A stretch of 64,000 nt of DNA from Enteractinococcus fodinae (GTDB lineage Bacteria > Actinomycetota > Actinomycetes > Actinomycetales > Micrococcaceae). Shown one piece after another: positions 1,592 through 44,972 of the stretch (position 1 is its first letter; each line of letters opens with the position of its first letter). The stretch is taken from NCBI RefSeq assembly GCF_031458395.1, contig NZ_JAVDYJ010000001.1:434001-498000 (forward strand), in the 5' to 3' direction. The translations under genes and the position numbers were made by a program. The notes under the pieces were generated by a model that was not told where the DNA came from, made no database searches, and saw nothing but the letters and a program-made list of their open reading frames with translations.

Positions 1592-1607
1592 GACCTGAAG
1601 CACCGAT

Positions 1608-7941: not shown

Positions 7942-8754
7942 TTAATAGCTGGTGGTTTCGGTTTCGACGGTGGTCCACTTGGCCGCCAATTGTTCGGTCG
8001 CCCGAGCCAACAGTGCCACATCGGCACCAACGTTGACGAAGTCCGCACCCGCCTCGACATAGTCTTGTGCCTGGTCGGGGTTGAAAGCGTTGACCCCGGC
8101 GAACACCCCGGCTGCTTTGGCCTTGGCGATGACGTTTTTCGCGGCTGCCACCACCTCGGGATGGTTTTGCTGGCCGGTGTAGCCCATCGACGCCGACAAA
8201 TCCGAGGGGCCGATGAACACCCCGTCGATGCCCTTGACCGCCAGGATGTCATCGAGGTGTTCCAGCGCCTCGGCGGTTTCAATCTGGATGGTCAGCGTGA
8301 TGGTCTCACGCGCGGTGGCCAGGTAGTCGGGGTAGCGTCCCCAGGCGCCCGACCGTGCCAGTGCCGAACCGATACCGCGCACGCCTTCGGGCGGGTAAGC
8401 GACCGCGGCGGCGGCCTTGCGAGCATCGTCAGGGGTGAAGATCATCGGGATGACCAACGACTGAGCACCCAAGTCCAAGTACTGCTTGATGAGCGTGGTG
8501 TTGTTCTCGGGGATCCGCACCACCGGGATGGACTCGTATCCGGCAATCGCGCGCAGCTGGTTTTGGACGGATTCCAAACTCAGCGGTGAGTGCTCGGCGT
8601 CGATGATGAGGTAATCCATCCCGGCACCAGCCACAATTTCGGCGATCCCAGCATCCCCGGAGGATAGGAACATGCCGGCGGCCGCCCGATTGCGTTGGGC
8701 TTTCGCTTCGTCGGTAAATAAGGATTTTAAAGAGGGGCGTGGGGTCAGAGCCAT
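7942..8754 (-). CDS. hpaI: 4-hydroxy-2-oxoheptane-1,7-dioate aldolase (HpcH/HpaI family)
   Basis: HpaI splits 4-hydroxy-2-oxoheptanedioate into pyruvate and succinic semialdehyde, the last step of homoprotocatechuate (3,4-dihydroxyphenylacetate) meta-cleavage. The 270-residue TIM-barrel protein has IIDAEHSPLSL (catalytic His55), a metal-binding Glu in the TIQIETAEAL strand and Asp in VFIGPSDLSAS. The ATG at 8754 has AAAGGA upstream; a longer open frame runs back into hpaH and is not the gene. It lies 31 nt downstream of hpaH, so the two form one operon under the palindrome at 9602-9613. Confidence 0.92.
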   Translation of the reverse strand: MALTPRPSLKSLFTDEAKAQRNRAAAGMFLSSGDAGIAEIVAGAGMDYLIIDAEHSPLSLESVQNQLRAIAGYESIPVVRIPENNTTLIKQYLDLGAQSLVIPMIFTPDDARKAAAAVAYPPEGVRGIGSALARSGAWGRYPDYLATARETITLTIQIETAEALEHLDDILAVKGIDGVFIGPSDLSASMGYTGQQNHPEVVAAAKNVIAKAKAAGVFAGVNAFNPDQAQDYVEAGADFVNVGADVALLARATEQLAAKWTTVETETTSY

Positions 8755-8785
8755 AAAGAGTCCTTTGCGTGACGGAGTGGCGGGA

Positions 8786-9571
8786 TTAGTCGAACTGGAT
8801 ACCGATGCTGCCCAGTGGGCCAAATTCGGCGAACACCGTATCGCCCTCGTGCACCCACATGTACCGGGTGAATGAACCGGCCAGAATAATTTCGCCGGCG
8901 GCCAGATAATCGTCGTGGCCGGCCAGGCGGTTGGCCAACCAGTGCACGCCATTGGCCGGATGGCCCAAAATACCGGCCGACAGACCGGTTTCCATAATCT
9001 CGTTATTGCGCCACAGCGCGCCCCCGACCCACCGCAGGTCGATCTCATCGGGTTTCACGGGAGTTCCGCCCAACACCATTGCGCCCAGTGCGGCGTTATC
9101 CGAAATGGTGTCGGTGATGGTGCGGCCTTCCATCTCGATGTGGGCATCGAGCACTTCCAACGCGGGTGTGACGTATTCGGTGGCGCGCAGCACGTCAAAA
9201 ATATTGACGTTGGGTCCACGCAGGTCGTCTTTCAGTACGAAGGCCAGCTCAATTTCGATCCGTGGGTGGGTGTACTGTTTCCACTCAAAGACATGACCGG
9301 ATTCGAACACTTGATCATCAAAGATCACGCCGTAGTCGGGTTCGTCGATGCCGGTTGCTGCCTGCATCGCTTTGGATGTCAGGCCGATTTTGTGCCCGAC
9401 TTTGCGGCGACCGCTCTCCACCTGGCGCTCAGCCCAGATTTTTTGGATCGCGTAGGAATCTTCGACCACCATGTCGGGGTACCGTTTCGTCAGCAGCGGC
9501 ACCGGTTTGCGGTCAATATTGGCCTGGTGCAACTCGTCAGCGATTTTGACGTGAGTTTCGTGATCTAACAT
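8786..9571 (-). CDS. hpaH: 2-oxo-hept-3-ene-1,7-dioate hydratase
   Basis: HpaH adds water to 2-oxohept-3-ene-1,7-dioate to give the HpaI substrate. The 261-residue protein belongs to the FAH-like hydratase/decarboxylase family (MhpD/DmpE/HpcG). It shows the conserved GHKIGLTSKAMQ, the metal-binding IEIELAFVL segment and HPANGVHWLANRL near the end. The ATG at 9571 has AAGGAG 5 nt upstream. It is the first gene of hpaH-hpaI, and its 77-bp upstream gap, shared with the end of selB, contains an operator identical to that of the other hpa locus. Confidence 0.92.
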   Translation of the reverse strand: MLDHETHVKIADELHQANIDRKPVPLLTKRYPDMVVEDSYAIQKIWAERQVESGRRKVGHKIGLTSKAMQAATGIDEPDYGVIFDDQVFESGHVFEWKQYTHPRIEIELAFVLKDDLRGPNVNIFDVLRATEYVTPALEVLDAHIEMEGRTITDTISDNAALGAMVLGGTPVKPDEIDLRWVGGALWRNNEIMETGLSAGILGHPANGVHWLANRLAGHDDYLAAGEIILAGSFTRYMWVHEGDTVFAEFGPLGSIGIQFD

Positions 9572-9601: not shown

Positions 9602-9613
9602 AATCGTATACGA
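9602..9613. promoter_or_regulatory. Putative GntR operator at hpaH
   Basis: AATCGTATACGA, with the palindromic core TCGTATACGA at 9604-9613, lies 33 nt upstream of hpaH. The identical 12-mer lies upstream of the hpaG-led operon (45023-45034). The GT-N2-AC dyad fits the general GntR-family operator form. Binding is inferred from the sharing, not shown. Confidence 0.65.
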
Positions 9614-9648: not shown

Positions 9649-11436
9649 CTATCGACCGCTGACTTTGCGCAGGTTGCCGTCGAGGCGCTGAGTCCAGCCG
9701 CGCTCATCGAGATGCTCTAGCAAGGGGATCAGAGTGCGACGGGTGGTCCCCAAAGCTTTGCGAGCATCGGCTGCGGTGAACGGCTGATCCAATTGGACTA
9801 GGTGGCGCATGGCCAGCGCCGGAGCCTTGGGTCCCAGGACGATGTTGTCCGCCAGACGCACGAGTCGCTGTTGTTTCGCTGCCGCCGCGAGGTCTTTGTC
9901 CCCTAGCTTCAACTCGTTGAGCTCATCCGCCGTGGGAGCGGTGAAGGGGTCTTGTTCCAGACGGCGCTCCAGCGTGGCGATAGATGCTTCGGCAGCCCCA
10001 AGCGATGGTCGCAGTTCCGGGTTGGAGACCCGTCCTTCGGTCTGCTGAAATCCGGCCTCGGTAACCACCAGGGGCAGGAGTTCGCGATCCGGAAGCGCTA
10101 ACAAATTCACTGCAGCCTGCTGGGAGATGCCACCGGCACTCGGGTCCTTGTCATAGTGCTGCTTGACTGCCGCATCCAAGTCCTGGGTCCATGCGGCCAG
10201 TGCGCTCCGGGCCACAAACCAACCAGCGTGTTCGTGAACTGTTGCCGGCAGGGGACTCGGTACTGGAATGTTCATCGCGGTGATCTGGGCCTGCAATACG
10301 GCCCGCCGTCGTGCAACCTCGAGCTCAAGGTGGTTGTTTGTGTTGAGATCGGCCAGTGTTCTGGCACGCCGGGCGGCGGCACCGCGACGACGTAGTTCCG
10401 GCGGATCGACGTCGAGCACGGTCGCCCCGCCGGTGATGAGTCGTTGCCCGGTGCCACGCAGAATAAACCGGTCACCGACGTGAAGCGGTAATGTGCGATC
10501 CAGACTCAAGCGCGCGAACCGGGGACCGAAGGGTCTGCAGTGCACGTAGGTAGTGGCCGTGCCGATGTGTACCGAGAATTCTTGGCCCAGCTCGGTGAAG
10601 TCGACCTCCGGGGTACCCATCACGTCAATGACATCGGTGTCCCACCAAGCATCCGGCGTGACCAGCACGTCTCCGCGAGAAATCTCCTCGACCTTGACAC
10701 CGCGGATATTCACCGCAGCTCGCGTGACCGGGGGGAGCGTCTCGGCGCTGGTGCCGTGGCTCTGCAGGCCGCGAATCGTCACGGTTTTGTCGGCGACCTC
10801 AAGGGTGTCTTCGAGCCGAAGTGTGCCTGCGGCCAAAGTCCCGGTGACGACAGTCCCGGCTCCTTTGACCGCAAAGGAGCGGTCGACCCAGTAGCGGATC
10901 GGCGCGTTGGTATCGGCGGGGGGCACGTTGCTCAGGACGTCGGCCAGCGTGGAGCGAAATTCGTCCAACCCTGTGCCCTCCACGGCCGATGTCGCCACGA
11001 TCGGCGCATCGGCCAGCCCGGTGTCTGCCAACTCGTGACGCACCTGGTCTGTGACGATCTCTAGGTTTTCGGGGGCCAGATCGTATCGCGAGATGACCAC
11101 GACTCCATGTTGAATACCCAGGGCCCTGATCGCGTCCCGGTGCTCAGCGGTCTGAGCCTGCCAGCCCTCATCTGCTGCCACCACCAAACACACGATCGGG
11201 GCAGGGCCCAGGCCCGCTAACATGTTGCCCACAAAGCGTTCATGCCCGGGCACATCCACAAATGACACCGTCTGGCCCGACTCGAGGGTCATCGCCGCAA
11301 ATCCGAGGTCGATGGTCAGTCCGCGCTCGCGTTCTTCATCCCAGCGATCGGTTTCGGTACCGGTCAAGGCGCGCACGAGAGCGGACTTGCCGTGGTCGAC
11401 GTGTCCGGCGGTTGCGATGACAAACTGTTCAGTCAC
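9649..11436 (-). CDS. selB: Selenocysteine-specific elongation factor SelB
   Basis: SelB is the GTPase that delivers Sec-tRNA-Sec to the ribosome at UGA codons marked by a SECIS hairpin. The 595-residue protein starts with the G1 loop GHVDHGKS (11-18) and G3 DVPGHERF (61-68). EF-Tu-like beta-barrel domains follow, and then a C-terminal winged-helix region that in the family binds the SECIS RNA. The G4 position reads SRYD rather than NKxD, which is variable in SelB proteins. The GTG start at 11436 overlaps the selA stop by 4 nt and has GAGGAGG upstream, so it is translated coupled to selA. Confidence 0.95.
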   Translation of the reverse strand: MTEQFVIATAGHVDHGKSALVRALTGTETDRWDEERERGLTIDLGFAAMTLESGQTVSFVDVPGHERFVGNMLAGLGPAPIVCLVVAADEGWQAQTAEHRDAIRALGIQHGVVVISRYDLAPENLEIVTDQVRHELADTGLADAPIVATSAVEGTGLDEFRSTLADVLSNVPPADTNAPIRYWVDRSFAVKGAGTVVTGTLAAGTLRLEDTLEVADKTVTIRGLQSHGTSAETLPPVTRAAVNIRGVKVEEISRGDVLVTPDAWWDTDVIDVMGTPEVDFTELGQEFSVHIGTATTYVHCRPFGPRFARLSLDRTLPLHVGDRFILRGTGQRLITGGATVLDVDPPELRRRGAAARRARTLADLNTNNHLELEVARRRAVLQAQITAMNIPVPSPLPATVHEHAGWFVARSALAAWTQDLDAAVKQHYDKDPSAGGISQQAAVNLLALPDRELLPLVVTEAGFQQTEGRVSNPELRPSLGAAEASIATLERRLEQDPFTAPTADELNELKLGDKDLAAAAKQQRLVRLADNIVLGPKAPALAMRHLVQLDQPFTAADARKALGTTRRTLIPLLEHLDERGWTQRLDGNLRKVSGR

Positions 11437-12746
11437 GCATCCTCCTCCAGAAGCTCTTGCAGGCGCTGAAGAATGACAGCATCAGCCTCAACTGGTACGC
11501 AGCGAAGATCCAGCAGACAACGTCCATCGGTCACCCGCGGAAGGATCGCAGGGCTGCCTGTTCGCAACGGTTTTGCAAGGGCTTCGTCAAGACTAATAGC
11601 CCACCCGGGCAGGGGCACGCCGGCACCACCGCCGCCGCCCACGCGCCCATCGTGGGCCACGACTTCCGCGCCCACTGCTTCGGCAATACGTACACTGCGG
11701 CGGTGCAATTCATCCGGGTCGATATGCAGCGCATCGCGGACCGGTGTGGACGGGGCGTTCAGTGTTGCTTCCAGCGCGGCCAGCGTGAATTTATCTGCCC
11801 GAAACGCTCGAGCCAGCGGGTGGGTGGCGAGTCCGCTGATCACTTCACGGGTGCCCAGCAATAACCCGGCTTGCGGGCCGCCCAGCAACTTATCGCCACT
11901 GGCAATGACCACATCGGCACCGGCGCGCAGGGCTTCCCCGATCGTCGGTTCATTCGGCAGCGCCGGGTCCCGTTCGAACAACCCCGATCCGACGTCCACG
12001 ATGAGCGGCACGTCATGTTCTCTGGCCAGCTCGGCCAACTGTTTGGTCTCGACATCGGAGTTGAACCCGCCAATCCAATAGTTCGACGGATGCACCTTCA
12101 AGATCCCCCCGGTGCGCTCGGTGATGGCGTCCCGGTAATCATCGAGATTGGTCCGGTTGGTCGCGCCGACCTCTCGTAGTTGCACGCCCGTGGAAGTGAT
12201 CAGGTCCGGCAGGCGGAATCCGGCTCCAATCTCGACGAGCTCACCCCGACTGATGACCACTTCGGGCCTATCCGCCCTCACCGACAGCGCAGTGGTGGCC
12301 AGAGAGAGTGCGGCCGCACCGTTATTGACGACCAGAGCGTCTTCGGCATCCGGTGCAGCAGCCAACAGGGCAGCCTTGGCCCAGGTTCCCCGTTTGCTGC
12401 GTTTGCCATCGCGCAGGTCCAGTTCCAAATCAACGTATCCGGCCGCCGTGATCAGCGCGTCTCGTGCAGCATCAGACAGTGGCGCCCGACCGAGGTTGGT
12501 ATGGATGATCACGCCGGTGGCATTCAACACCGACGACAACCGGGTCGGTGAGGCCTGCTCTACTGCAGCAATAACCTGCTCGGTCACCTCGGTAGGGGCG
12601 ATGTCGCCAGCGCGTGCGGACTCCTGCACGGTCGTGATGATGCGCCGGATCATCTGGGGTGCCAATCGCTTGCTGGCGGCCGCGACCTGGTCGAGCGCAA
12701 GCAGCCGGTCGGTGGAGGGAATCGTTCGGCGCGGATCTGGGCTCAC
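11433..12746 (-). CDS. selA: L-seryl-tRNA(Sec) selenium transferase SelA
   Basis: SelA is a PLP enzyme that converts Ser-tRNA-Sec to Sec-tRNA-Sec with selenophosphate. The 437-residue protein has the signature SGDKLLGGPQAGLLLG with the PLP lysine, the N-terminal tRNA-binding region, and TGVIIHTNLGRAPL early in the protein. I chose the GTG at 12746, preceded by AAAGGA 6 nt away. The frame stays open upstream through tRNA-Sec, so an automatic call might wrongly extend the protein by about 56 residues into the tRNA gene. It is followed by overlapping selB. Confidence 0.95.
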   Translation of the reverse strand: MSPDPRRTIPSTDRLLALDQVAAASKRLAPQMIRRIITTVQESARAGDIAPTEVTEQVIAAVEQASPTRLSSVLNATGVIIHTNLGRAPLSDAARDALITAAGYVDLELDLRDGKRSKRGTWAKAALLAAAPDAEDALVVNNGAAALSLATTALSVRADRPEVVISRGELVEIGAGFRLPDLITSTGVQLREVGATNRTNLDDYRDAITERTGGILKVHPSNYWIGGFNSDVETKQLAELAREHDVPLIVDVGSGLFERDPALPNEPTIGEALRAGADVVIASGDKLLGGPQAGLLLGTREVISGLATHPLARAFRADKFTLAALEATLNAPSTPVRDALHIDPDELHRRSVRIAEAVGAEVVAHDGRVGGGGGAGVPLPGWAISLDEALAKPLRTGSPAILPRVTDGRCLLDLRCVPVEADAVILQRLQELLEEDA

Positions 12747-12788
12747 CGCACGTCCTTTCCATACACAAGCGCAGGCGGGAAGAAAGTT

Positions 12789-12884
12789 TGGCGGAGGCGG
12801 ACGGGAATCGAACCCGCCAGACCAAGCTACTTGGTCTCGTCGGTTTTGAAGACCGCGGGGACCACCAGGAACCCTGACGCCTCC
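12789..12884 (-). tRNA. selC: tRNA-Sec (anticodon UCA)
   Basis: A 96-nt tRNA including an encoded CCA end. The acceptor arm is GGAGGCG with CGCCTCC. The anticodon loop is CTTCAAA, reading UCA (decodes UGA). The long variable arm has an 8-bp stem (AGACCAAG with CTTGGTCT), and the T-loop is TTCGATT with a G-C rich stem. Length and long extra arm are those of bacterial tRNA-Sec. It lies 42 nt upstream of selA on the same strand and back-to-back with selD. Confidence 0.95.
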
Positions 12885-12958
12885 AAAAACACAAACTATC
12901 ACGTTTAGGACCAAGCAGCATCGTCGGATGGCCCCTGTCGCGTCCGGTCCGGCGTTCC

Positions 12959-12964
12959 TATACT
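12959..12964 (+). promoter_or_regulatory. -10 element of selD
   Basis: TATACT lies 7 nt before the selD ATG, so transcription would begin at or just before the start codon, giving a leaderless or nearly leaderless mRNA, which is common in Actinobacteria. No good -35 hexamer is visible. A GGGG 4 nt before the ATG could instead serve as a weak ribosome site. Confidence 0.45.
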
Positions 12965-12971
12965 GGGGATC

Positions 12972-13976
12972 ATGTCTGAGACTTTAGAATCCCACACCCT
13001 GCCACGTTTGACCACCACAGCCTCCGGTGGTGGCTGCGCCTGCAAAATCCCGCCCGGGGAGCTAGAAGAGGCCGTTGCCCAGCTCGCCGGCCAGGACTAC
13101 GACGAAGTGATCGTCGGCCTCGACGACGGTGACGACGCAGCTGCAGTCCGACTAGAGGGCAATACCGCGATCCTCTCGACGGCTGACTTCTTCACCCCTG
13201 TGGTCGATTCAGCCTATGACTGGGGTCGGATCGCTGCGGCCAATGCGATGAGCGATATATACGCCATGGGCGGCCGCCCGATCGTAGCGATCAACCTGAT
13301 GGGATGGCCTCGGGGGGTATTACCGGCCGAACTGATGTCCGAAGTTTTGGCCGGTGGGCTGGCCGTCGGGAAACAGGCCGGTTGCCCGGTCATCGGTGGG
13401 CATACTGTCGATGACCCCGAACCGAAATACGGCATGGCCGTGACCGGAGTTGCGCAGGCCGATCAGCTGCTGCGCAATGACGCTGCACAAGCCGGGTTGC
13501 CGCTGACATTGACCAAACCGATTGGCCTGGGTCTGTTGAATAACCGGCACAAAGCCACCGGTGAAGTCTTCGAAGAAGCCATCGCCACGATGACGACCCT
13601 CAACAAGGAAGCCTCCGAGCAGGCAGTCGCCGCCGGGGTTAAAGCCGCCACCGATGTCACCGGTTTCGGGCTGTTGGGGCACCTATACAAAATGATGCGT
13701 GCCTCCGGGACCGGGGCGGTCCTCGAGCGCAGCGCTGTCCCACTGGTTGAAGGTGGAGCGGATGCGCTCGCGAAAGGTTACGTTTCTGGTGGCACCCGTC
13801 GAAACCTTGAATGGGTCGGCCCACACGTTGAAACCGGAGCAGGGATCATCGAAGACGACCTACTGGTGTTAGCTGACGCCCAAACTTCAGGCGGCCTGCT
13901 GGTGGTCGGCGAACTACCGGGCCACCCAATCATCGGGTACACAACCGAACGTGCCGGTGTGGTCGAGGTCCGTTAG
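12972..13976 (+). CDS. selD: Selenide, water dikinase (selenophosphate synthetase)
   Basis: SelD makes selenophosphate from selenide and ATP, the selenium donor for SelA. The 334-residue protein has the N-terminal catalytic loop GGGCACKIPP with Cys22 (the Cys/Sec17 position of the E. coli enzyme) and Lys25, so this SelD is itself a Cys form. AIRS-type ATP-binding follows, with aspartates in VGLDDGDDAA and the TDVTGFGLLGH motif. It is divergent from selC-selA-selB and overlaps the convergent nrfD-type gene by 4 nt. Confidence 0.96.
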   Translation: MSETLESHTLPRLTTTASGGGCACKIPPGELEEAVAQLAGQDYDEVIVGLDDGDDAAAVRLEGNTAILSTADFFTPVVDSAYDWGRIAAANAMSDIYAMGGRPIVAINLMGWPRGVLPAELMSEVLAGGLAVGKQAGCPVIGGHTVDDPEPKYGMAVTGVAQADQLLRNDAAQAGLPLTLTKPIGLGLLNNRHKATGEVFEEAIATMTTLNKEASEQAVAAGVKAATDVTGFGLLGHLYKMMRASGTGAVLERSAVPLVEGGADALAKGYVSGGTRRNLEWVGPHVETGAGIIEDDLLVLADAQTSGGLLVVGELPGHPIIGYTTERAGVVEVR

Positions 13977-15076
13977 CCGACCGTGACGATCGAGTCGTCC
14001 ACGATGCCCTGGGCGCGACGTGCTTCGAGTCGTGCTTTCTGCGGCTCAACCACATGGCGTGGATCTTTCGTGGAGTTGATACCAGCATCCATGATGGCCG
14101 AACGGGTAAGGAACGATGCGGTGGCCAGTGCCGCACCGGATGCGACGGCAGCGATCCGGTTACCACTGAGCAGGGCCGCACCGATACCGCCAGCAATGGT
14201 GAGGCGTTTAGCCCAGCGGAGCCGCTGACCGGGTTTGCCGGTTTTCAGTGGTTCCGCTTCGGCCGGGTGCATCGGCTCGGTGAGCTTTTCCGAAAAGTAC
14301 AGTTCCGACGCTGCGCCGATGGCGGCAAAAGCCCTGGCGGGTCGGGTCTCAGCGGTCGGGGTAGTGATCAGTGCCGCGCCGGAGGAGGCCATGGCCGCCG
14401 ACGACACGAACAGATACGACAAGTTCTCTTTCCCGGCGTTCCAGGTGGGGACCGCGGTGTCTGCCAGCAGCGCGCCGGTATAAGAGGCCAGGGGAGCGCC
14501 AAGGACTGCTGCCAGTGTCCCGGATGGTTTTTCGAGTGCTCTCGAAATCGGGCGGAGTATCCCGATCGGCAGTTTTTCGCCGGTCATTCGGTCAATGTCA
14601 GTGGCCGCTGCGACTCCGGCAGTGGTACCGAAAGATGCCAAGATCCATGTCCCCATGTTCATGGGGGACGATGGCTTGAACGTCCGCATCATGTGGTGGA
14701 AGCGCTCTGGTCGACCAAGGTCTACAATAAGAAACCCTGTGCCGGCTATGGTCGCGGCAAGAGCGGTGAGCCGAGTGTTTCGACGTAGCTTGGTGAAACC
14801 GATCGCGTCAGCCCCGGCGGCCAGCATAGCGGAGCCACCGGCGAGCCCACCGAGGAACAGGTACGCGGAGATCTTGTAGTCCCACGGTGGGGCTTTGACG
14901 ATGTGGCGGCCGTAGTACGAGTCGGAGAATTCGACGTCGTCCACCATCGGCATTTCGCGCCCACCATCGCCGCCACCGCGTCGTCGGCCACTGCCGGGGC
15001 GTCGGTTGTTGTCGCGCTTCTTTTTGCGACGGGTCTGGTGTTCTGGCCGGTAGGCGTCGAAATCTGACAGAGTCAC
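13973..15076 (-). CDS. Formate dehydrogenase membrane subunit, NrfD/PsrC family
   Basis: A 367-residue NrfD-type integral membrane protein, the likely quinone-side anchor of the formate dehydrogenase encoded upstream. About eight hydrophobic segments begin at residue 70 (KISAYLFLGGLAGGSAML). Before them lies an unusual 60-residue hydrophilic N-terminus with a strongly basic stretch (RRKKKRDNNRR and GRRRGGG at 16-36). The GTG start overlaps the stop of the iron-sulfur subunit (GTGA), so expression is coupled. It is not a FdnI-type cytochrome b: the protein is NrfD-like and lacks that family's haem pattern. Confidence 0.88.
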   Translation of the reverse strand: MTLSDFDAYRPEHQTRRKKKRDNNRRPGSGRRRGGGDGGREMPMVDDVEFSDSYYGRHIVKAPPWDYKISAYLFLGGLAGGSAMLAAGADAIGFTKLRRNTRLTALAATIAGTGFLIVDLGRPERFHHMMRTFKPSSPMNMGTWILASFGTTAGVAAATDIDRMTGEKLPIGILRPISRALEKPSGTLAAVLGAPLASYTGALLADTAVPTWNAGKENLSYLFVSSAAMASSGAALITTPTAETRPARAFAAIGAASELYFSEKLTEPMHPAEAEPLKTGKPGQRLRWAKRLTIAGGIGAALLSGNRIAAVASGAALATASFLTRSAIMDAGINSTKDPRHVVEPQKARLEARRAQGIVDDSIVTVG

Positions 15077-16137
15077 TTCTTGCGGGCTCCTAGGAATGCG
15101 GTTGCTGCGGCAGCAAGCATGCCAGCGGCAGCAATGCCGACTCGTTTATACATCGCGGGCAGATCCTTGGTGGGCACCTGTGGATCTGGTGGCAGACCGT
15201 AGACTTCTGGTTCATCGAGCAGGAGAAAGACCGAGCCGATGCCGCCCACTCCGTCATTGGGGTTCGCGCCGTAGAGGCGGGCTTCGGTCTGGCCCTGTTC
15301 GTGCATCGTGGTGACACGTTCTTTGGCCGAGTCAATCATGTCGGTCTGAGTACCGAACTTGATCGATTCAGTCGGGCAGGTTTTAGCGCACGCCGGGGTC
15401 TGGCCATCAACTAACCGGTCGTAGCACAGCGTGCACTTTTTGGCCGTGCCAGCGTGTTTGACTTCCATCGCGTATCGCGAGTCGGTGCGATCTGGTTTGG
15501 TATGAATCGTGCCGGTATCACGGCGTTCGATGACACCGAAGGGGCAACCGGCCACACAGGTACCGCACCCGTTACAAATATCATCTTGGACAACCACGGT
15601 GCCGTGCTCAGTCCGGTACAGTGCACCGGTCGGGCAGACGTCCAAGCAACCGGCGAAGGTGCAGTGCTTGCATACGTCAGAGCTCATCAACCACCGGAAC
15701 TCCGGGGTATCCGGGTTCGGTGGGTTATCGACCTGCTCTTTGATCCGCACCCCGGGGGACCCGAATTCCGGCATACCGACGTTCTTTGCGGTCGACTGCT
15801 TCTTCTCGGGCGCACCAAAGGATGGCATGCCCAGGGCTGTGAGTTTTGCACCGGAGTCGCGTGCTTTTTGGATCTGCTCTTGGTCTTGTTCAATGAACGC
15901 GACGTGACGCCACGTGTTAGCTCCGAGGCCACCGGTGTTATCGTATGACGATTCCAAGAGTTCTAGGTCCCCCTTCATCGGGACCTCGTTCCACTCTTTA
16001 CAAGCTACTTCACACGCTTTACACCCGATACAGATGGAGGTGTCGGTAAAGAACCCTTTGCGTTCTTTCCCATCCTCGTACGCATCGATGAGTTGACCCG
16101 GTTTTTCCTTGAAATCAAACAAGACTGTCTCCTTCAT
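15073..16137 (-). CDS. fdhB: Formate dehydrogenase iron-sulfur subunit (FdhB/FdoH-like)
   Basis: The 354-residue electron-transfer subunit has four cysteine clusters for four [4Fe-4S] centres: CIGCKACEVAC (36-46), CKHCTFAGCLDVCP, CNGCGTCVAGCP and CTLCYDRLVDGQTPACAKTCP. One C-terminal membrane helix follows (AAAGMLAAAATAFLG), as in FdnH/FdoH. I took the ATG at 16137; a TTG at 16155 is the alternative, and neither has a strong ribosome site. The start lies inside the 3' end of fdhA, so translation is coupled. It hands electrons from the Mo/W site to the NrfD subunit. Confidence 0.92.
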   Translation of the reverse strand: MKETVLFDFKEKPGQLIDAYEDGKERKGFFTDTSICIGCKACEVACKEWNEVPMKGDLELLESSYDNTGGLGANTWRHVAFIEQDQEQIQKARDSGAKLTALGMPSFGAPEKKQSTAKNVGMPEFGSPGVRIKEQVDNPPNPDTPEFRWLMSSDVCKHCTFAGCLDVCPTGALYRTEHGTVVVQDDICNGCGTCVAGCPFGVIERRDTGTIHTKPDRTDSRYAMEVKHAGTAKKCTLCYDRLVDGQTPACAKTCPTESIKFGTQTDMIDSAKERVTTMHEQGQTEARLYGANPNDGVGGIGSVFLLLDEPEVYGLPPDPQVPTKDLPAMYKRVGIAAAGMLAAAATAFLGARKK

Positions 16138-19100
16138 GGTGCTCGGGATCGGCAAAGCGTGGTGGTTGAAGCACCTTCATGGTCTCCGGATCACGTTCAT
16201 AGGTGATTCTGCCCTGTCCGGTCAGCGGCGTGATGCCCGCGCGTTCGCGGTATTCATTGACGAACTCAACCAGCGCTTCACCACGTGGCCGGCGACCGGG
16301 CTGAATTGCACAAGCAACAGCTTTCGCCGACTGAATGAAGACGTTGGGGTCCATCGTGATACCCAACAGGTCGTTGGCACCGTCGCCAGTGATGAGCGCT
16401 TCGGTTCCGACACCCCAGTGGTACGGCAAGCCGATTTGGTGGATCGTCTTGCCACCCGCCTGGATGGGCTGCATTCGTTGGGTCACCAAGACTTTTGCTT
16501 CGATCGCGCCACGCGGCGAGATGATCGTTGCCCAACCGTAGGGTTCCAGGCCGAATTCTTCGGCGAGTTCTTCCGAGACCTCGCAGAACATCTCTGGTTG
16601 CAGTTCGGACAGATACGGCAGGAAGCGGCTCATGCCACCGGCTGTGTGGTGCTCGGTTAGTCGGTAGGTCGTAAAGACGTGAGGATACACTTCCTCGCCC
16701 TTGCGACCGGCAGCCGGGGCCAGTTGGTTGCCTTCATCCGTAATCAGGACCCGTGCAGGGGACTCTTGTTGCGGATAGAGACTGTTCGCAACCGACGATT
16801 CGGGCGGCTCGTAGTGCGTTGGAAGTGGGCCGTCTTTCATTCCCATTGGGGCAAACAGCCAGCCCTTCCCATCGCGCTGCATGATGAACGGGTCATCGCC
16901 GGCAATGGATTCTGGACCATAGGAGCCGTGTTCGGTTTTCGCACTTGGGGCGCGATCGACCGGGAAGTCGGGGACATCGGGTCCGACCCACTTGCCTTCG
17001 TCTTCGTCCCACCAGATGTGCTTCTTACGTTCCGACCAGGGTTTCCCATCCGGATCCGCCGAGGCACGGTTGTACAGGATACGACGGTTCGCTGGCCAGG
17101 CCCAAGCCCACTCCAATGCCATTTCGTCCTGCTCGTCGCCGGGCACTCGAAGTGCGGCGCGGTTGACCTCATCGGCGTAGACACCGGTGTAAATCCAGCA
17201 CCCGCCGGCGGTCGAGCCATCGGGTTTCATCTGGTTGAAGTTATCCAACGGTTTCCCAGCGTCTGGGCCGCTCACATGGAAGCCATTGATTTCACGCAGT
17301 ACTGCTTCAGCGGACGGTTCGCCGTGCTCATCGACGGGGTAGTCCCAGGTCATGTCCAACAGTGGTCGGTCACGTGGGTCGGTCGAGTCTTTCAGTCGTT
17401 CTTTGATACGGTTGCCCAGATCAAAGAAGAACTCCAGTTCAGAGCGGGCATCGCCGGGTGGTGTCACCGCTTGGTGACGCCACTGGACCAGTCGTTGCGT
17501 CTGAGTGAATGTGCCAGCTTTTTCGGTGTGGTTGGCGGCCGGCATGAAGAAGACTTCCGTATCGATTTCTTCAGTCTTCAATTCACCGGTTTGGATTTCT
17601 GGTCCGTCACGCCACCAGGTGGCAGTTTCAATCTGTTGGAAGTCGCGAACGACCATCCACTTCAGATTTGCCATGCCCAGCCGCTGCATCCGCCCATTGG
17701 CTGACCCGACCGCCGGGTTTTGGCCGAGCACAAAGTAGCCGTCCACACCCTTGTCGAACATGCGCATCAGCGTCTGGTAGGTGCCATGTGCGCCAGTTAG
17801 TTTCGGCAGGTAGTGATAGGCGTAGTCATTCTCCGGGGTGGCTGCATCGCCGAACCATGCTTTGAGTAAGGACACCATGTAGGCATCGCCGTTGGACCAG
17901 AAGCCTTTCTGATCTTTGGGCACGGCTTCGTTGAAGTAGTCCTGCAGGGTGTCGTGCTTGCCAGCCACGGGGAATGGCAGGTACCCGGGTAGCAGATTGA
18001 ACAGCGTTGGAATATCGGTCGAGCCCTGAATGGTCGCGTGACCGCGCAGGGCCATGATGCCGCCACCGGGACGACCCATGTTGCCCATCAGCAGTTGCAG
18101 GATCGCAGAGGTACGAATGAATTGCGCACCCATGGAGTGCTGCGTCCAACCCAAGGCGTAAGCCATACAGGTGGTGCGTTCCCGTCCGGAGTTTTCCGCG
18201 AAGGCTTCGGCAAGATAATGGAAATCATCTTGCTTGATGCCACACAGGTCTTCGACCGTTTCCGGTGTGTACCGCGAGTAGTGGCGTTTGAGGATCTGGA
18301 ATACCGACCGGGGGTGTTCCAGGGTTTTATCCTTGGCGATGCCATCGGGTTCATTCGGGTCGTGTTCGTACTGCCAGGATTCGTTGTCGTAACCCTGGAT
18401 ATCGTCGTCGTAGCCGGAGAAGAGGCCGTCAAGGTCTTCGGGCCCTTTGTAGTCTTGCGAAATGATGAACGACGCGTTGGTGTACGGAATGACGTAGTCC
18501 TTGAACCATGCGTCATTTTCGATCATGTACCGAATGAGGCCACCCAGCAGCGCGATGTCGGAGCCAACACGAATGGTGATGTGTTTGTCCGCGACCGCTG
18601 AGGTTCGTGTGAAACGCGGGTCCACGTGAATAACTTTGGCACCGCGTTTTTTGGCCTCGGACACCCACTGGTATCCCACCGGGTGGCATTCAGCCATGTT
18701 TGAACCCTGGATGACAATCAGGTCTGCATTCGCCATGTCTTGCAATGGCTGGGTGGCACCGCCACGCCCAAACGAGGATCCTAAACTAGGAACCGTGGAA
18801 GAGTGTCAAATCCTGGCTTGGTTCTCGATCTGCACCGCTCCGGCAGCCGAGAACAACTTCTTGATCAGGTAGTTTTCTTCGTTATCGATGGTCGCTCCGC
18901 CAAGGGACGCAATGCCCATGGTGCGGTTGACGGGCGTGACACCATCCTCAGCAAAATCTTCCCAATGATTGGCCCGAGCTTCCAGGAAGCGGTCGGCAAT
19001 CATGTCCATCGCCGTGTCGAGATCGAGCTCTTCCCAGTCGGTGCCTCGAGGACGACGATAGAGGACGGTTTTCTGTCGGGAGGGTGTATTGACGAGCTGC

Positions 19101-19375
19101 TCGGAAGCAGCTCCCTTCGGGCACAACCGGCCGCGAGACACCGGGGAATCCGGGTCGCCCTCAATATGGGTGACCTTATTGTCTTTCACATAAATGCGCT
19201 GACCGCAGCCCACCGCACAGTACGGGCAGACGCTCTGGACAACTCTGTCAGCATCTTCCGTCCGGGGGCGCATGTTTTGATATTTGGGCGACTCAACCGT
19301 CGGCCCGCGCCCCAGCTTGTCTTTTGACTTGGCCTGGCGAAATACCGGCCACCCGAGGATAGAAAACCGTGACAT
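16115..19375 (-). CDS. fdhA: Selenocysteine-containing formate dehydrogenase, catalytic subunit (UGA read as Sec190)
   Basis: This molybdopterin oxidoreductase oxidises formate to CO2. Read through one in-frame UGA it is 1086 residues. The N-terminal [4Fe-4S] ligands are Cys50, Cys53, Cys57 and Cys85, followed by RGRLCPKG. The residue after NQARI is Sec190 (UGA at 18806-18808), exactly where FdnG/FdoG carry Sec, followed by HSSTV. Both halves match the family continuously across the UGA: SLGSSFGRGGATQ, then NADLIVIQGSNMAECHPVG. The N-terminus has no twin-arginine signal (MSRFSILGWPVFRQ), so the enzyme should face the cytoplasm. It is followed by overlapping fdhB. An annotation that stops at UGA would split it at 18806 and 18745. 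Confidence 0.95.
18776..18794 (-). promoter_or_regulatory. SECIS-like hairpin downstream of the Sec UGA
   Basis: Beginning 11 nt after the UGA, the mRNA can form GG, a U:U mismatch, UCCUA, loop GUU, UAGGA, a U, CC. The stem position (11 nt after UGA) and GGUU opening resemble the E. coli fdhF and fdnG SECIS. This is inferred structure; SelB binding is not shown. Confidence 0.65.
18806..18808 (-). other. In-frame UGA selenocysteine codon of fdhA
   Basis: TGA (minus strand) sits between codons for NQARI and HSSTV in an otherwise uninterrupted formate dehydrogenase frame, at the family's Sec position. selA, selB, selC and selD lie within 10 kb. Confidence 0.93.
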
Positions 19376-40102: not shown

Positions 40103-41269
40103 TTAGAGTTGGTTGCCGAGCTTGAATTCACCCTTCTTCCAGTCGGGCATGTCTTTGTCGTCGTCGGCTCGAGTGTAGGAGAAACCATCTGCACCGATGG
40201 TGACCTCCATTTCGCTTTCGTCGGTCCGTTCCACGACTTCCTGTGGCTTGCCATCGAGGTCCAGCACCAAGGAAGCTTCGGTATACCAGGATGGCACAAC
40301 CGGGTTGCCCCACCAGTCGCGACGTTGATTATCGTGCACGTCCCAGGAAACCACGGGGTTATCGGGGTCACCGGTCCAGTAATCCTGCGTGTAAATCTCG
40401 ACGCGGTGACCGTCTGGGTCGCGCAGGTACAGATAGAAGGCGTTGGAGACACCGTGGCGACCGGGGCCGCGCTCGATGGCATCCGAGCGACGCAGGGCAC
40501 CTAGCTTGTCACAGATGGCCAGGATGTTGTGCTTTTCGTGGGTGGCAAACGCGACGTGGTGCATCCGGGGTCCATTGCCACCGGTCATCGCGGTGTCGTG
40601 GACTGTCGGTTTCCGGCGCATCCACGCGGCATACACGGTGCCGTCGCTGTCGGAAATTTCTTCGGTGATGCGGAAACCCAAGTCCTGCATGTAGCGGGCC
40701 GCGCGTGGCACATCCGGGGTGACCTGGTTAAAGTGATCCAACCGGACCAGTTCGCCAGGGATGTGCAGGTCATAGCGCCAAGCTAAGCGTTCTACATGGT
40801 CAACATCGTAGAAAAATTCGTATGGGAAGCCCAGCGGGTCTTCGACGCGAACCGAGTCGCCGATACCCCGGACGAAACCGTCCTTACGGCGTTCCACCCG
40901 GCAGCCCAGTTCTTTATAGAACGCCTCGGCTTTATCCACATCTTCGGGGGAACGCACCCGATAGGAGAATGCCCCGACGGCTGCGATATCACCTTGTTTC
41001 AGCACCAGGTTGTGATGAATGAACTCTTCGGCCGAGCGCAGGTAGATCTCCTGGTCATCCTCGTGGGTAACGTGGAGACCTAAAACGTCAACATAGAACT
41101 CTCGGGATGCCGCCAGGTCGGTGACCTGGATTTCCATGTAGGCTACGCGCAGCACATCTGGGGCTTCAGCTTCCGGTGTCGGGATCGGGTTGTCCGTGTT
41201 GACGGGCGCGTCCTGGGAGACGTGAAATCCCGAACTGGTGAGGGTGCGCTTATTTTTATCGATGGTCAT
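40103..41269 (-). CDS. hpaD: 3,4-dihydroxyphenylacetate (homoprotocatechuate) 2,3-dioxygenase
   Basis: This extradiol ring-cleavage enzyme opens homoprotocatechuate to 5-carboxymethyl-2-hydroxymuconate semialdehyde. The 388-residue vicinal-oxygen-chelate protein is very like the Arthrobacter Mn enzyme MndD and Brevibacterium HPCD. Metal ligands His179 (RLDHFNQV), His238 (MHHVAF) and Glu291 (HRVEIYT) have the same spacing. It carries about 30 extra N-terminal residues. Whether it uses Mn or Fe cannot be read. The ATG at 41269 has GAAGGAT upstream. It is the last gene of the operon hpaG-rraA, gntR, hpaE, hpaD. Confidence 0.95.
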   Translation of the reverse strand: MTIDKNKRTLTSSGFHVSQDAPVNTDNPIPTPEAEAPDVLRVAYMEIQVTDLAASREFYVDVLGLHVTHEDDQEIYLRSAEEFIHHNLVLKQGDIAAVGAFSYRVRSPEDVDKAEAFYKELGCRVERRKDGFVRGIGDSVRVEDPLGFPYEFFYDVDHVERLAWRYDLHIPGELVRLDHFNQVTPDVPRAARYMQDLGFRITEEISDSDGTVYAAWMRRKPTVHDTAMTGGNGPRMHHVAFATHEKHNILAICDKLGALRRSDAIERGPGRHGVSNAFYLYLRDPDGHRVEIYTQDYWTGDPDNPVVSWDVHDNQRRDWWGNPVVPSWYTEASLVLDLDGKPQEVVERTDESEMEVTIGADGFSYTRADDDKDMPDWKKGEFKLGNQL

Positions 41270-41300
41270 AATTGATCCTTCAGTATGGTTCCGACCACAT

Positions 41301-42800
41301 TTACTGTTTGCCGAAAACTGGGTTGTGCACTTCGCCCAGGTTGATGTGAACGGCCTGCTGCTCGGTGTAGAAGTCGATCGAGCGGTAGCCACCCTCTTGA
41401 CCGAGTCCGGAAGCCTTCACGCCACCGAATGGGGTGCGAAGATCGCGAACGTTGTTGGAGTTCAGCCACACCATGCCGGCTTCCACCTTCTGGGCGAAGT
41501 TGTGGGAACGCTGCAGGTCGTTGGTCCAAATGTAGGCAGCCAGACCGTACGTGGTGTTGTTGGCCAACTCGAGGGCTTCTTCATCGGTGTCGAACGGGGT
41601 GATTGCCACGACCGGCCCGAAGATTTCTTCTTGGAAGATGCGGGTATCTGGTGCCACGTCAGCAAAGACAGTGGGCTGCAGGAAATTTCCGTCCGGGAAT
41701 TGCTCTGGACGGTCCCCACCGGCGACCAGACGGGCTTCGTCTTTCCCGATTTGGACATAGGACCAGACCTTGTCGAAGTGTTCTGGGTGGACCAGGGCCC
41801 CGACTTCGGTCTTTGGATCGTCTGGCATCCCGACTTTGACGTTGGCGGCCTGAGCTGCGTAGCGTTCGACGAATTCATCGTAAATGCTGCGCTGAACCAG
41901 GATGCGCGAACCGGCGGTGCAGCGTTCACCGTTAAGCGAGAACACTCCGAAAATGGTCGCATCGATGGCTTTTTCCAAATCGGCGTCTTCGAAGACCACG
42001 GCGGGAGATTTGCCGCCCAGTTCCATGGACAGACCCTTCAGGTAAGGAGCGGCGTTGGCCATGATGATCTGGCCGGTGCGGGATTCACCGGTGAACGAGA
42101 TCAGCGGAACATCTGGGTGTTTGACCAGCGAATCGCCGGCATAACCTTCTTCGCCGTAACCGTGGACCATGTTGAACACACCGGCAGGCAGGCCGGCTTC
42201 TTCGAAGATGCCGGGCCATAGGCTGGCCGACAGTGGCGTGAACTCAGCTGGCTTCAACACCACGGTGTTTCCGGTGGCCAAGGCTGGGCCAAGTTTCCAC
42301 GACTCCAGCATAAAAGGGGTGTTCCAGGGAGTGATTAGCCCGGCAACACCAATGGGTTTGCGGTTAACGTAGTTAATCTGACGCCCCGGAACCTTGAAAG
42401 CGTGGTCTTCCTGAGCCACGATCAGGTCGGCGAAGAACCGGAAGTTTTCGGCCGCACGGCGTGCCTGGCCCAGGGTCTGGGAAATCGGTAGACCCGAATC
42501 CCAGGTTTCCATTTCAGCCAGTTCCTGCTGACGGGTTTCGACCACATCGGCGATGTTGTGCAGGATGCGGGAGCGTTCGCGTGGCAGCATGTGTGGCCAT
42601 GGGCCGTTGTCGAAGGCATCTTTGGCGGCCGCTACGGCAGCGTCAATGTCGGCGACTTTCCCCGACGATGCCTGGATGTAGGTCTCGTTGGTGACCGGGT
42701 TGATCACGTCAAAGGTATCCTCATCGACGGAGTCGACGAATTCACCGTTGATGTAGTGACGGATTTGATCTGGCATATTGTCTGGTTTGCCGTTACTCAT
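41301..42800 (-). CDS. hpaE: 5-carboxymethyl-2-hydroxymuconate semialdehyde dehydrogenase
   Basis: HpaE oxidises the ring-cleavage semialdehyde with NAD. The 499-residue aldehyde dehydrogenase has Asn160 (ITPWNTPF), Glu260 (MELGGKSP) and catalytic Cys294 (NGERCTAGSR). The ATG at 42800 has AAAGGA 5 nt upstream. It lies between the GntR gene and hpaD in one operon. The HpaE call rests on that context as well as sequence. Confidence 0.93.
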   Translation of the reverse strand: MSNGKPDNMPDQIRHYINGEFVDSVDEDTFDVINPVTNETYIQASSGKVADIDAAVAAAKDAFDNGPWPHMLPRERSRILHNIADVVETRQQELAEMETWDSGLPISQTLGQARRAAENFRFFADLIVAQEDHAFKVPGRQINYVNRKPIGVAGLITPWNTPFMLESWKLGPALATGNTVVLKPAEFTPLSASLWPGIFEEAGLPAGVFNMVHGYGEEGYAGDSLVKHPDVPLISFTGESRTGQIIMANAAPYLKGLSMELGGKSPAVVFEDADLEKAIDATIFGVFSLNGERCTAGSRILVQRSIYDEFVERYAAQAANVKVGMPDDPKTEVGALVHPEHFDKVWSYVQIGKDEARLVAGGDRPEQFPDGNFLQPTVFADVAPDTRIFQEEIFGPVVAITPFDTDEEALELANNTTYGLAAYIWTNDLQRSHNFAQKVEAGMVWLNSNNVRDLRTPFGGVKASGLGQEGGYRSIDFYTEQQAVHINLGEVHNPVFGKQ

Positions 42801-42818
42801 GTCGTCCTTTCAATATTC

Positions 42819-43493
42819 TTAGAAATCTTGTGCAGTGGCCTGTGCGTGGTGATCCAGGTAGGCATTCAAGGCATTGAGCCGGTGGTTTCGAGCCGCTGAT
42901 TCAATGACGGAAAACGCTGCCCCGCCGGCAATCAAATCCAGCAGTTCATCGTGTTCGGCGACCGAGTTCGGAGCCCGGGACGGGATGATCGAAAACGTTG
43001 ATGACCGAAGAGCCGCCAGTCGGTTCCATCCGCGATTCACCAGGTCCAAAATGTGCGGATTTGGGTGATGTTCAAATAGGGCTAAATGAAATCTCTCGTT
43101 CAGTGCGGTGAACGTCTCGGGCACGAAACCCTCGCCTAACATATCTCGCATCTGATCATTGATCCCGCGGGCCCTGGTGAGCGTCTGGGCTGTAACCAAC
43201 GGTGCACACAGCGCCGTGGAATACCCTTCCACCAGGGCCAGGGTTTCCATCGTGTACTGGTATTCCACGGGGTCGATACCGGTGACGGTGGCGCCCACAT
43301 TGCGTTCAAATTGGACTAAGTCATCGGTCTGGAGCCGCCGAATGGCCTCCCGTACGGGAACCACCGACATGCCCAACTCTTGTGCAATGGTCGAGAGCAC
43401 GAGCCGGTCACCGGCCTTGTAGCGACCCGAGGTAATCCCATCCAGGACGTGCTGGTGCGCCTGATCAGCTTTGGAAAGACCATTGACAGACAT
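42819..43493 (-). CDS. GntR-family (FCD) regulator of the hpa genes
   Basis: A 224-residue GntR protein. The N-terminal winged helix (about 10-75) includes VPVREAIRRLQTDDLVQFERNVGA, followed by an all-helical FCD ligand domain whose histidines (NERFHLALFEHHPNPH and a later HRLNALNAYLDHH) probably hold a metal. It directly follows the HpaG-RraA gene inside the hpa operon. It is the obvious candidate to bind the palindrome TCGTATACGA found before both hpa operons, released by an aromatic or ring-cleavage acid (inference). Confidence 0.9.
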   Translation of the reverse strand: MSVNGLSKADQAHQHVLDGITSGRYKAGDRLVLSTIAQELGMSVVPVREAIRRLQTDDLVQFERNVGATVTGIDPVEYQYTMETLALVEGYSTALCAPLVTAQTLTRARGINDQMRDMLGEGFVPETFTALNERFHLALFEHHPNPHILDLVNRGWNRLAALRSSTFSIIPSRAPNSVAEHDELLDLIAGGAAFSVIESAARNHRLNALNAYLDHHAQATAQDF

Positions 43494-44972
43494 TTAGTCG
43501 CCTTGCTCGGCGCGGTAAGCCTCGTATTTGGCTTTCCACTGACCCGTTGGTGGAAAGAGGCCATCTACGGCAGCGCCGTTTTTGACTTGTTCAAAGACCC
43601 ATGCGTCCTGTTTTTCTTGTTCGAAGGATTCTTCGATCACTTCAACCAGCAGCTCCGGTGGTACAACGACCACTCCGTCATCGTCACCAATGATGATGTC
43701 GTTAGGTTGCACCGTGGTGCCACCGCAGGCGATGGTGCCATCCATTTCCCAGGGGACGTGGCGACGGCCCAGCACAGCCGGGTGGAAGCCATTGGAATAC
43801 ACTGGGATGCCCACTTCGGCAACGGCCGCAGCGTCGCGGACCCCACCGTCGGTGATCACGGCCTTTGCGCCGCGAACCTTGGCCCGCATGGCCAATACGT
43901 CACCGAGAGTTCCGGTGCCTTTTTCGCCGCGTGCTTCCATGACAACAATGTCATCGGGTTGCACCGAGTCCATGGCCTGCTTCTGTTTATTAAACCCGCC
44001 CCCGTGCTTTTTGAATAGGTCTTCACGGTTTGGCACATATCGTAGGGTCTTCGCGAAACCGAGAATCTGCTGGCCTGGATGCATTGGTCGAGGACCGTCG
44101 ATCGTGCAGTTATTGATACCGCGTTTGCGCATGTTCGCCACGATGGTCGCCACCGCGGTCTGGGAGATTTTCTTGCGCAATTCATCGGTCAAGATCGCGC
44201 GCGGATCCGTCAGCCCTGCTTTTTCTTTCGAACCCCAGGCTTCCTCGCGCTGCACATCATCAACCTTTGGTCCGTGCCCATAATCGGCCATCGCAAATGA
44301 GGACTCTTGGACATGGGATACCAGACGCCCGGTCGTGGGCGCACCGTCAGCCTGCGGCGCGTCGACTTCCACCTCGACGACGTCGCCGGGCTGTGCCACC
44401 GATGAACCCGCAGGCGTGCCGGTCAAAATGACGTCGCCTTCCTCCAGTGTCATCAACTGGGACAGATCAGCGATCAGCTGTCCGAAGGGGAAGACCAGGT
44501 CCGCGGTGGTGTCGTCTTGGACGATCGCGCCATTAACCCAGGTACGAATACGCAGCTGGGTGGGGTCGATGCCCTCGGTACTGATGATCGCAGGGCCCAA
44601 TGGCGTGTAGTTGTCACCGGATTTATTTTTGACGTTGGAGCCCTTATCCGCATGCCGCAGATCGTAGAGCCCCCAGTCGTTGGCGGCGGTAACCCCTGAA
44701 ACGTAGGACCAGCCATCCTCGGGGGACACGCGACGAGCGTCTTTGCCGATGACCAGCGCGATTTCGCCTTCATACGCTAATAGTTCAGTGCCGGCTGGGC
44801 GCTCAATTGTCGCACCGGTTGGGGCGATAGATGACGTGGCTTTAAGAAAATAGCCGGGGAACTTGGGGCTGCGTCCGCGCTCTTTGATGCGGGACGGGAA
44901 GTTGAGATGCAGGGCAACGATTTTGCCCGGTCGGTTCTGCTTGACCGAAAAATCGTACGCACTCACGTTCAT
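43494..44972 (-). CDS. hpaG: HpaG-type FAH isomerase/decarboxylase fused to an RraA-like domain
   Basis: The 492-residue protein has two domains. Residues 1-245 are a fumarylacetoacetate-hydrolase-fold HpaG domain (YEGEIALVIGK around 67-77, LTGTPAGSS). This domain decarboxylates 5-oxopent-3-ene-1,2,5-tricarboxylate or isomerises its product. Residues from about 265 are an RraA/HMG-aldolase-like domain (MEARGEKGTGTLGDVLA, DGGVRDAAAVAEVGIPVYSNGF, IIGDDDGVVVVP). Relatives of the second domain are 4-hydroxy-4-methyl-2-oxoglutarate/oxaloacetate aldolases, so it might decarboxylate or clean up an oxo-acid. The ATG at 44972 has GGAGGT. First gene of the operon. Confidence 0.87.
   Translation of the reverse strand: MNVSAYDFSVKQNRPGKIVALHLNFPSRIKERGRSPKFPGYFLKATSSIAPTGATIERPAGTELLAYEGEIALVIGKDARRVSPEDGWSYVSGVTAANDWGLYDLRHADKGSNVKNKSGDNYTPLGPAIISTEGIDPTQLRIRTWVNGAIVQDDTTADLVFPFGQLIADLSQLMTLEEGDVILTGTPAGSSVAQPGDVVEVEVDAPQADGAPTTGRLVSHVQESSFAMADYGHGPKVDDVQREEAWGSKEKAGLTDPRAILTDELRKKISQTAVATIVANMRKRGINNCTIDGPRPMHPGQQILGFAKTLRYVPNREDLFKKHGGGFNKQKQAMDSVQPDDIVVMEARGEKGTGTLGDVLAMRAKVRGAKAVITDGGVRDAAAVAEVGIPVYSNGFHPAVLGRRHVPWEMDGTIACGGTTVQPNDIIIGDDDGVVVVPPELLVEVIEESFEQEKQDAWVFEQVKNGAAVDGLFPPTGQWKAKYEAYRAEQGD

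Follow-up and report, generated by a model that had tools for sequence, protein, structure and literature searches.

A Selenocysteine-Decoding Gene Block and Its Formate Dehydrogenase in Enteractinococcus fodinae: Probable Acquisition as a Unit and Location within a Severed hpa Operon

Introduction

Where selenocysteine (Sec) is decoded, a stop codon acquires an additional meaning, and the trait can be gained only if several components and a client arrive together. How a genome comes by all of them is the question raised by a stretch of 64,000 nucleotides from Enteractinococcus fodinae (contig NZ_JAVDYJ010000001.1, positions 434,001 to 498,000 of the forward strand; hereafter the window, to which coordinates refer unless a locus is named). 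A single 10-kb block of this window, 9649-19375, holds selB, selA, the gene of tRNA-Sec with its UCA anticodon, selD and fdhABC. An earlier note, made from the sequence alone, had suggested that these genes were gained or lost as a unit. We conclude that the block is probably a functional Sec-decoding cassette with its client formate dehydrogenase, acquired as a unit by an ancestor of the genus and now situated between hpaD and hpaH. The block is real and ordinary in kind, and a good case can be made for acquisition as a unit, because the FdhABC and SelABD trees are discordant with that of rpoB and the hpa operon is split.

The Gene Block and Its Products

The block comprises seven parts, listed here in the order of the window.

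9649..11436, minus strand: selB, selenocysteine-specific elongation factor (595 amino acids; TIGR00475, 305 bits; Pfam SelB-wing_3)
11433..12746, minus strand: selA, L-seryl-tRNA(Sec) selenium transferase (437 amino acids; TIGR00474, 402 bits)
12789..12884, minus strand: selC, tRNA-Sec with UCA anticodon (ARAGORN; Rfam RF01852, 72.4 bits, gathering score 47)
12972..13976, plus strand: selD, selenophosphate synthetase (334 amino acids; TIGR00476, 367 bits)
13973..15076, minus strand: fdhC, NrfD-like membrane subunit (Pfam NrfD, 78 bits)
15073..16155, minus strand: fdhB, 4Fe-4S subunit (best match TIGR01582, below cut-off; Fer4_11)
16115..19375, minus strand: fdhA, formate dehydrogenase catalytic subunit, a selenoprotein (1086 amino acids with UGA read through)

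The profile scores of selA, selB and selD each exceed the curated cut-off, and that of tRNA-Sec exceeds the gathering score. The tRNA-Sec, SelA, SelB, SelD and three-subunit formate dehydrogenase with in-frame UGA that the earlier note had described were thus all found in place, and its claim that the Sec factors and their client share one block is borne out by coordinates and profile matches. The longest selA frame passes through the tRNA-Sec gene, and the true start is most likely the GTG at 12746, downstream of the tRNA. selD, which lies on the strand opposite to the other genes of the block, is without UGA; its GGGCACK motif holds a Cys at what we take to be the position of Sec in some SelDs.

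FdhA gives one match to NF041513 (formate_DH_Act) on each side of the UGA (322 and 1438 bits), and the full frame scores 1824 bits against a cut-off of 1400 in a genome-wide search. Its best match in the Protein Data Bank is 1kqf, a nitrate-inducible formate dehydrogenase, and 1h0h is also a relative. Genes for the iron-sulfur and membrane subunits adjoin fdhA, the membrane subunit being NrfD-like and not FdnI-like.

The Selenocysteine Codon of fdhA

The recoding site consists of two features.

18806..18808, minus strand: in-frame UGA, selenocysteine codon 190 of fdhA (context NQARI-U-HSS; open frame of 1086 residues)
18755..18811, minus strand: selenocysteine insertion sequence (SECIS) region of fdhA (Rfam SECIS_3, RF01989, E 4e-5, 35.8 bits; apical stem 18776-18794)

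Among 101 FdhA entries, a count in which some loci occur more than once, the codon at the Sec site is TGA in 86 and TGC in 15, with no other stop codon; the pattern used admits stop or Cys only, so that other residues are undetectable. Behind the UGA, 97% of the cells of an 8-pair stem are paired in 66 unique UGA rows. When synonymous codons were shuffled within columns, the 1000 trials averaged 92.6% and none exceeded 93.8%; this test overstates independence because the UGA rows are related. Pairing reaches at most 68% when the 3' partner is slid and 67.7% in the 12 unique Cys rows. A double synonymous change at one stem pair, C-G to U-A, is present in seven rows, all from this genus, and the row of the window itself keeps seven of the eight pairs.

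The fdhA site is the only genome-wide SECIS_3 match with an E-value no higher than 1, in a search that scored 150 of 1601 first-look candidates, and its score lies below the RF01989 gathering score of 63. We also note that a wider SECIS model built from the present FdhA rows may be useful, given this low score. A mir-981 match from the same Rfam search is taken as chance.

Discordant Gene Trees

In what follows, g1 is the genus of this genome (Yaniella/Enteractinococcus), g2, g4, g7, g10, g13, g17 and g19 are other genera, and f5, f6 and f11 are other families. The rpoB tree (86 rows; without G014, G155, which has an rpoB fragment, and G347, in which no rpoB was found) places the genus within its family beside g17, g2 and g4 with a support of 100; f6 branches as sister to the entire family, and f11 is further out. 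The trees of FdhA (63 rows), FdhABC (30 rows) and SelABD (53 rows; without G310 and G316, in which no selA was detected) unite the genus with two members of g13, G012 and G165, and place it near G138, f6 and f11. The gene trees therefore agree among themselves and conflict with the species tree.

In approximately unbiased (AU) tests, a clade of g1, g2 and g4 is rejected by FdhABC (p 4e-54) and by SelABD (p 2.6e-5), and FdhABC also reject a clade of the family (p 1e-8). The rpoB data reject both the grouping of g1 with G012 and G165, the g13 rows with the same block type (p 2.4e-5), and that of g1 with g13, f6 and f11 (p 4.3e-5). In a SelABD tree of 32 rows the genus still joins G012 and G165, at 99. 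The distances of fdhA and SelABD are correlated (r 0.84), and remain so given rpoB (partial r 0.77; 30 genomes, 0 of 5000 permutations); the 30 genomes of the distance tests and of the FdhABC and rpoB AU tests were hand-picked from the 53 of the SelABD tree.

The Severed hpa Operon

The second line of evidence is the site itself, at which the genes of a 4-hydroxyphenylacetate operon lie on both sides of the block.

7942..8910, minus strand: hpaI, aldolase gene of the split hpa operon (start provisional; best match TIGR02311, under cut-off)
8786..9571, minus strand: hpaH, hydratase gene of the split hpa operon (TIGR02312, 340 bits, under the cut-off of 351.5)
40103..41416, minus strand: hpaD, directly before hpaH in g4 and g13 (start provisional; TIGR02295, 432 bits)
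41301..42809, minus strand: hpaE (TIGR02299, 654 bits)
42819..43493, minus strand: GntR/FCD regulator inside the hpa operon (Pfam GntR, FCD)
43494..45014, minus strand: hpaG-like fumarylacetoacetate hydrolase/RraA-like fusion (NF009399, 804 bits; Pfam FAA_hydrolase, RraA-like)

The order hpaG-gntR-hpaE-hpaD-hpaH-hpaI is contiguous in g4 and g13. The empty site is seen in two g4 genomes and one g13 genome, in which hpaD and hpaH are adjacent, separated by 22 bp (G034) and 122 bp (G003) in g4 and by 20 bp (G012) in g13. The same gap measures 30.5 kb in the window, 18.4 kb in G093, 16.6 kb in G049 and 23.5 kb in G140, and the Sec block lies directly against hpaH in all four of these genomes of the genus; in the window hpaH is found 77 bp downstream of selB.

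Distribution and Gene Order

A patchy distribution, which the earlier note had claimed for bacteria, holds across the family and not within the genus. tRNA-Sec of at least 72 bits was found in 71 of 295 family genomes, five further genomes with 47.5-48.5 bits, just over the gathering score, not being counted. UGA-type FdhA is present in 73 of the 295 and both together in 70. The only genome with tRNA-Sec and no UGA-type FdhA is G110, whose FdhA is cut by the contig end before the UGA, and the three with the converse pattern (G021, G148 and G155) are all fragmented, into 100, 430 and 280 contigs, respectively. Within the genus, the selB-hpaH junction occurs in eight of nine sampled genomes, so that the block must have been gained no later than the origin of most of the genus. 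The nearest selA loci, with 73-76% identity, are those of E. coprophilus, E. helveticum, Y. halotolerans and three metagenome-assembled genomes, one of them Candidatus Y. excrementavium.

The order fdhA-fdhB-fdhC, reversed selD, tRNA-Sec, selA, selB is found in 39 of 41 tRNA-Sec-bearing family loci, some of these 39 being truncated by the end of the contig or of the fetched stretch or interrupted by additional genes; the exceptions are G001, which is rearranged, and G294, which is split over two contigs. The same order is seen in 10 of 18 loci from other families of the order, and the FdhA cut-off is passed by 46 of 139 genomes in a sample of the order that includes family members. Within the order the block is thus both common and ancient, and this genome is one of many that carry it.

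Full-length Cys-type FdhA occurs in 12 family genomes, seven with and five without tRNA-Sec. It is a separate gene in the genus g7 and in G018 of g19 (L045-L056), seven of the 12 genomes holding both types, and a Cys-type FdhA beside the Sec type is a possible route to losing Sec. In Y. halotolerans (L004 8480-9763) and Ca. Y. excrementavium (L007 5761-7044), an AAA-ATPase gene is situated between selD and tRNA-Sec; it is 86-87% identical to window 50015-51331. Searches of G021, a member of the same genus, gave no match to hpaH, selA or selD and no tRNA-Sec of 72 bits. Its UGA-containing fdhA (L111, G021:C3:1-20000) lies at a contig edge, is of a different type that groups with G001 of g2, and has 67% identity to the window; this orphan-looking gene may be a second gain, contamination or an assembly gap.

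Cofactor Genes and the Question of a Single Client

The genome, 2.93 Mb in one contig, has one match to selA and one match above cut-off to selD; duplicated Sec genes were a pattern that the earlier note had named as one that would speak against it. The recommended check of cofactor genes located one copy of fdhD about 0.86 Mb from the block and one copy of moaA, also outside it; the block is thus without cofactor genes. We also note that G016 of g17, the sister of the genus in the rpoB tree, has neither a moaA nor an FdhA match, as if synthesis of the molybdenum cofactor came or went with the enzyme.

FdhA may be the single client of the machinery, being the only PF00384 protein of the genome and the site of the only SECIS_3 match. 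A scan of the window for UGA codons with coding signal on both sides ranks the true fdhA UGA only 11th of 285. A SelO/YdiU-family gene lies at window 54-1607, about 8 kb from the Sec block, and is near the block also in L004 and L007; SelO was ruled out as a second selenoprotein, as its frame ends in Cys-Gly-Thr followed by TAA and has no UGA.

Alternative Explanations

Several points weigh against acquisition as a unit or against the function assigned to the block. The species tree is that of one gene, all trees are the product of quick searches with support from the Shimodaira-Hasegawa-like approximate likelihood ratio test (SH-aLRT) only, and the AU p-values are optimistic because the groups were named after the trees had been seen and, for FdhABC and rpoB, a simpler model was used. 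The junction shared by most of the genus makes the block old, and the base composition that the earlier note had proposed to compare shows no clear step, the G+C content being 57-64% in block genes and 55-61% in the other genes measured, hpaD left aside.

The site adds points of its own. One FAD-linked oxidase gene (1.5 kb) lies between hpaD and hpaH in G016 of g17 and two genes (3.0 kb) in G001 of g2, named from a reading of their translations; the spot is therefore variable, and the interval of 16-30 kb may have accrued stepwise. In several species the interval also holds genes of an acyl-CoA dehydrogenase and a thioesterase (30699-32423) and of a DNA alkylation repair protein (37314-38243). 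No recombinase family was met among 32 distinct window translations, a set short of all open reading frames, searched with E-value limits that differed and were partly strict, and several of them without any match; end repeats were not searched. As to function, the SECIS of the window folded alone is no better than shuffles in RNA folding, and the assignment of FdhABC as a membrane-bound, molybdenum-dependent formate dehydrogenase is a prediction from sequence.

Under vertical inheritance, the block would have been present in the family ancestor and lost from most lineages; the unusual placements in the trees would stem from long branches, ancient duplicates or a weak signal, and the interval in hpa from a plain rearrangement. 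The conservation of block order over several families agrees with this, as does the long stem of the genus in both the FdhA and SelABD trees. SelABD alone do not reject a clade of the family (p 0.144), and the 32-row SelABD tree, made without a mixture model, does not resolve the tie of g1 to f6 and f11. Nevertheless, we consider this explanation improbable, because the clade of g1, g2 and g4, which rpoB joins (with g17) at 100, is rejected by FdhABC and SelABD alike, FdhABC reject the family clade as well, and the two gene sets agree on the same odd placement. The suggestion of gain or loss as a unit hence gains from the tree discordance and the split operon, and draws nothing from base composition or from the SelABD test of the family.

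Machinery and client might also have arrived separately and been joined later. A Sec-containing formate dehydrogenase without sel genes in the fetched stretch was found in G421 and, for one of two, in G316, which indicates that client and machinery need not lie together. We note here that G316, of family f5, has two Sec-FdhA genes (L235 and L236), with sel genes in the fetched stretch of one only. A separate arrival is very unlikely in view of the congruence of FdhA and SelABD distances beyond rpoB and of the order common to 39 of 41 family loci. The notion that the UGA is a true stop, and fdhA a pseudogene or the result of a sequencing error, has nothing in its favour besides the stop and is extremely improbable, as the same codon is UGA in 66 unique rows, where a conserved hairpin follows it, and Cys in 12 family genomes, five of them without tRNA-Sec.

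A Candidate Operator and the Proposed Mechanism

In the window hpaHI is separated from the rest of its operon, and a palindrome upstream of hpaH bears on its control.

9604..9613, no strand: palindrome TCGTATACGA upstream of hpaH, a possible regulator site, conserved in the genus
45025..45034, no strand: palindrome TCGTATACGA upstream of hpaG, the same sequence as at hpaH

TCGTATACGA is present in the selB-hpaH gap of seven aligned genomes of the genus and of G155. It is found upstream of hpaG also in G093, G049, g2 (G001) and g4 (G034 and G003); the g4 stretches have it upstream of hpaG only, and the g2 stretch has it upstream of hpaD and hpaH too. It was not found in the g13 and g17 stretches examined. 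The two exact copies in the 64 kb are both beside hpa genes; with up to one mismatch three are found against 0.83 expected, and 4 of 100 shuffles reach three. The GntR/FCD protein encoded at 42819-43493 is the obvious candidate for binding this site. The conserved palindrome suggests that hpaHI is under its own control and disfavours the proposal that hpaHI is merely co-transcribed with selAB, although read-through from selB may also reach it.

By the established roles of the protein families, tRNA-Sec would be charged with serine, SelD would make selenophosphate, and SelA would convert the seryl-tRNA to selenocysteyl-tRNA. SelB would bind the selenocysteyl-tRNA and the hairpin behind the UGA, Sec being inserted at FdhA residue 190, and electrons would pass from formate via FdhA, the iron-sulfur subunit and the NrfD-like subunit to the quinone pool. 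The source of the cassette would be a lineage with a block like the present g13 block and, in the FdhABC tree, those of f6 and f11, and hpaHI would have kept, or would already have had, its own copy of the likely operator.

Plasmid-Borne Copies

Relatives of selA were found in 149 plasmid records, and on the two closest plasmids the gene order of the cassette is unchanged and both tRNA-Sec and the UGA are present. One of them, pYA7-1a of Arthrobacter sp. YA7-1 (NZ_CP110115.1), is typed as conjugative (MOBP, MPF_T); the other, a 239-kb Tsukamurella plasmid, is typed as non-mobilizable. In gene order the copy on pYA7-1a is like that of the window. It is unlike it in being plasmid-borne and in grouping with g10/g7, so that pYA7-1a is not the source of the block of this genus; its existence suggests a vehicle of the kind that cassette transfer would need. 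A search of phages with selA gave matches that were weak or in bacterial records. On pYA7-1a, a Tn3-family element lies about 0.2 kb behind selB (L274 15345-18962) and an integrase gene about 3.6 kb before fdh. The Tn3 element was rejected as carrier of the cassette, since related 3.8-kb elements match other plasmids without the cassette.

A wider idea, which we hold tentatively and stop somewhat short of favouring, is that the seven-part fdhABC-selD-tRNA-selA-selB is a portable unit of genetic-code expansion that is transferred again and again, sometimes by conjugative plasmid, and carries its own reason for retention; in this genus it would have come to lie inside a catabolic operon, the downstream half of which is shielded from polar effects by its own operator copy. 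The fixed cassette, the recognisable site, the discordant phylogeny and the conjugative-plasmid copy within the family make the step from UGA as stop to UGA as Sec testable by transfer.

Comparison with Known Systems

Open-licence literature on Enteractinococcus, Yaniella, Micrococcaceae, plasmid-borne sel genes and YA7-1 yielded no report of the block of this genus, of the hpa site or of pYA7-1a. Related systems are known from several other bacteria. Corynebacterium aurimucosum has an fdnG-fdxH cluster with selA, selB, selD and selC (PMC2830990), and is alike in that an actinobacterium clusters its Sec machinery with a UGA-containing formate dehydrogenase. It belongs to a different family, and its cluster is not known to lie in an hpa operon. 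Actinomycetospora chiangmaiensis removes formate in a selenium-dependent manner, and SelABD were detected in it (PMC7176365). Its FDH1 cluster likewise combines FdhA1B1C1 with SelA and SelB; in contrast to the present block, selD is not listed in the description of that cluster, and the organism has three Sec-containing formate dehydrogenases. The predicted genomic island 8 of Brevibacterium luteolum 26C holds fdhA, fdnG, selD, selA and selB (PMC12467314); this is a table entry for another organism, with recQ listed between.

Horizontal transfer of the trait has also been described. In Pseudomonadales, a selA-selB-selC operon with fdhA nearby has been interpreted as transferred horizontally (PMC1794560). 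As proposed here, machinery and FdhA would have moved together, and there is a single client there, as may hold for the present genome; those organisms are Proteobacteria and their selD is treated as evolving independently, selD being part of the block in the present case. Transfer of the Sec trait to Photobacterium profundum has been reported (PMC1273633). Table 2 of another study lists two Arthrobacter strains as having received the Sec trait horizontally from other Actinobacteria (PMC5029168); the trait is the same, the order is Micrococcales (Micrococcineae), and the sel genes and formate dehydrogenase are mostly close, in species other than those of this genus. The block of E. fodinae is thus a gene block of known kind, the Sec trait and its horizontal transfer being known already, and it is set apart by an insertion site that is unusually clear.

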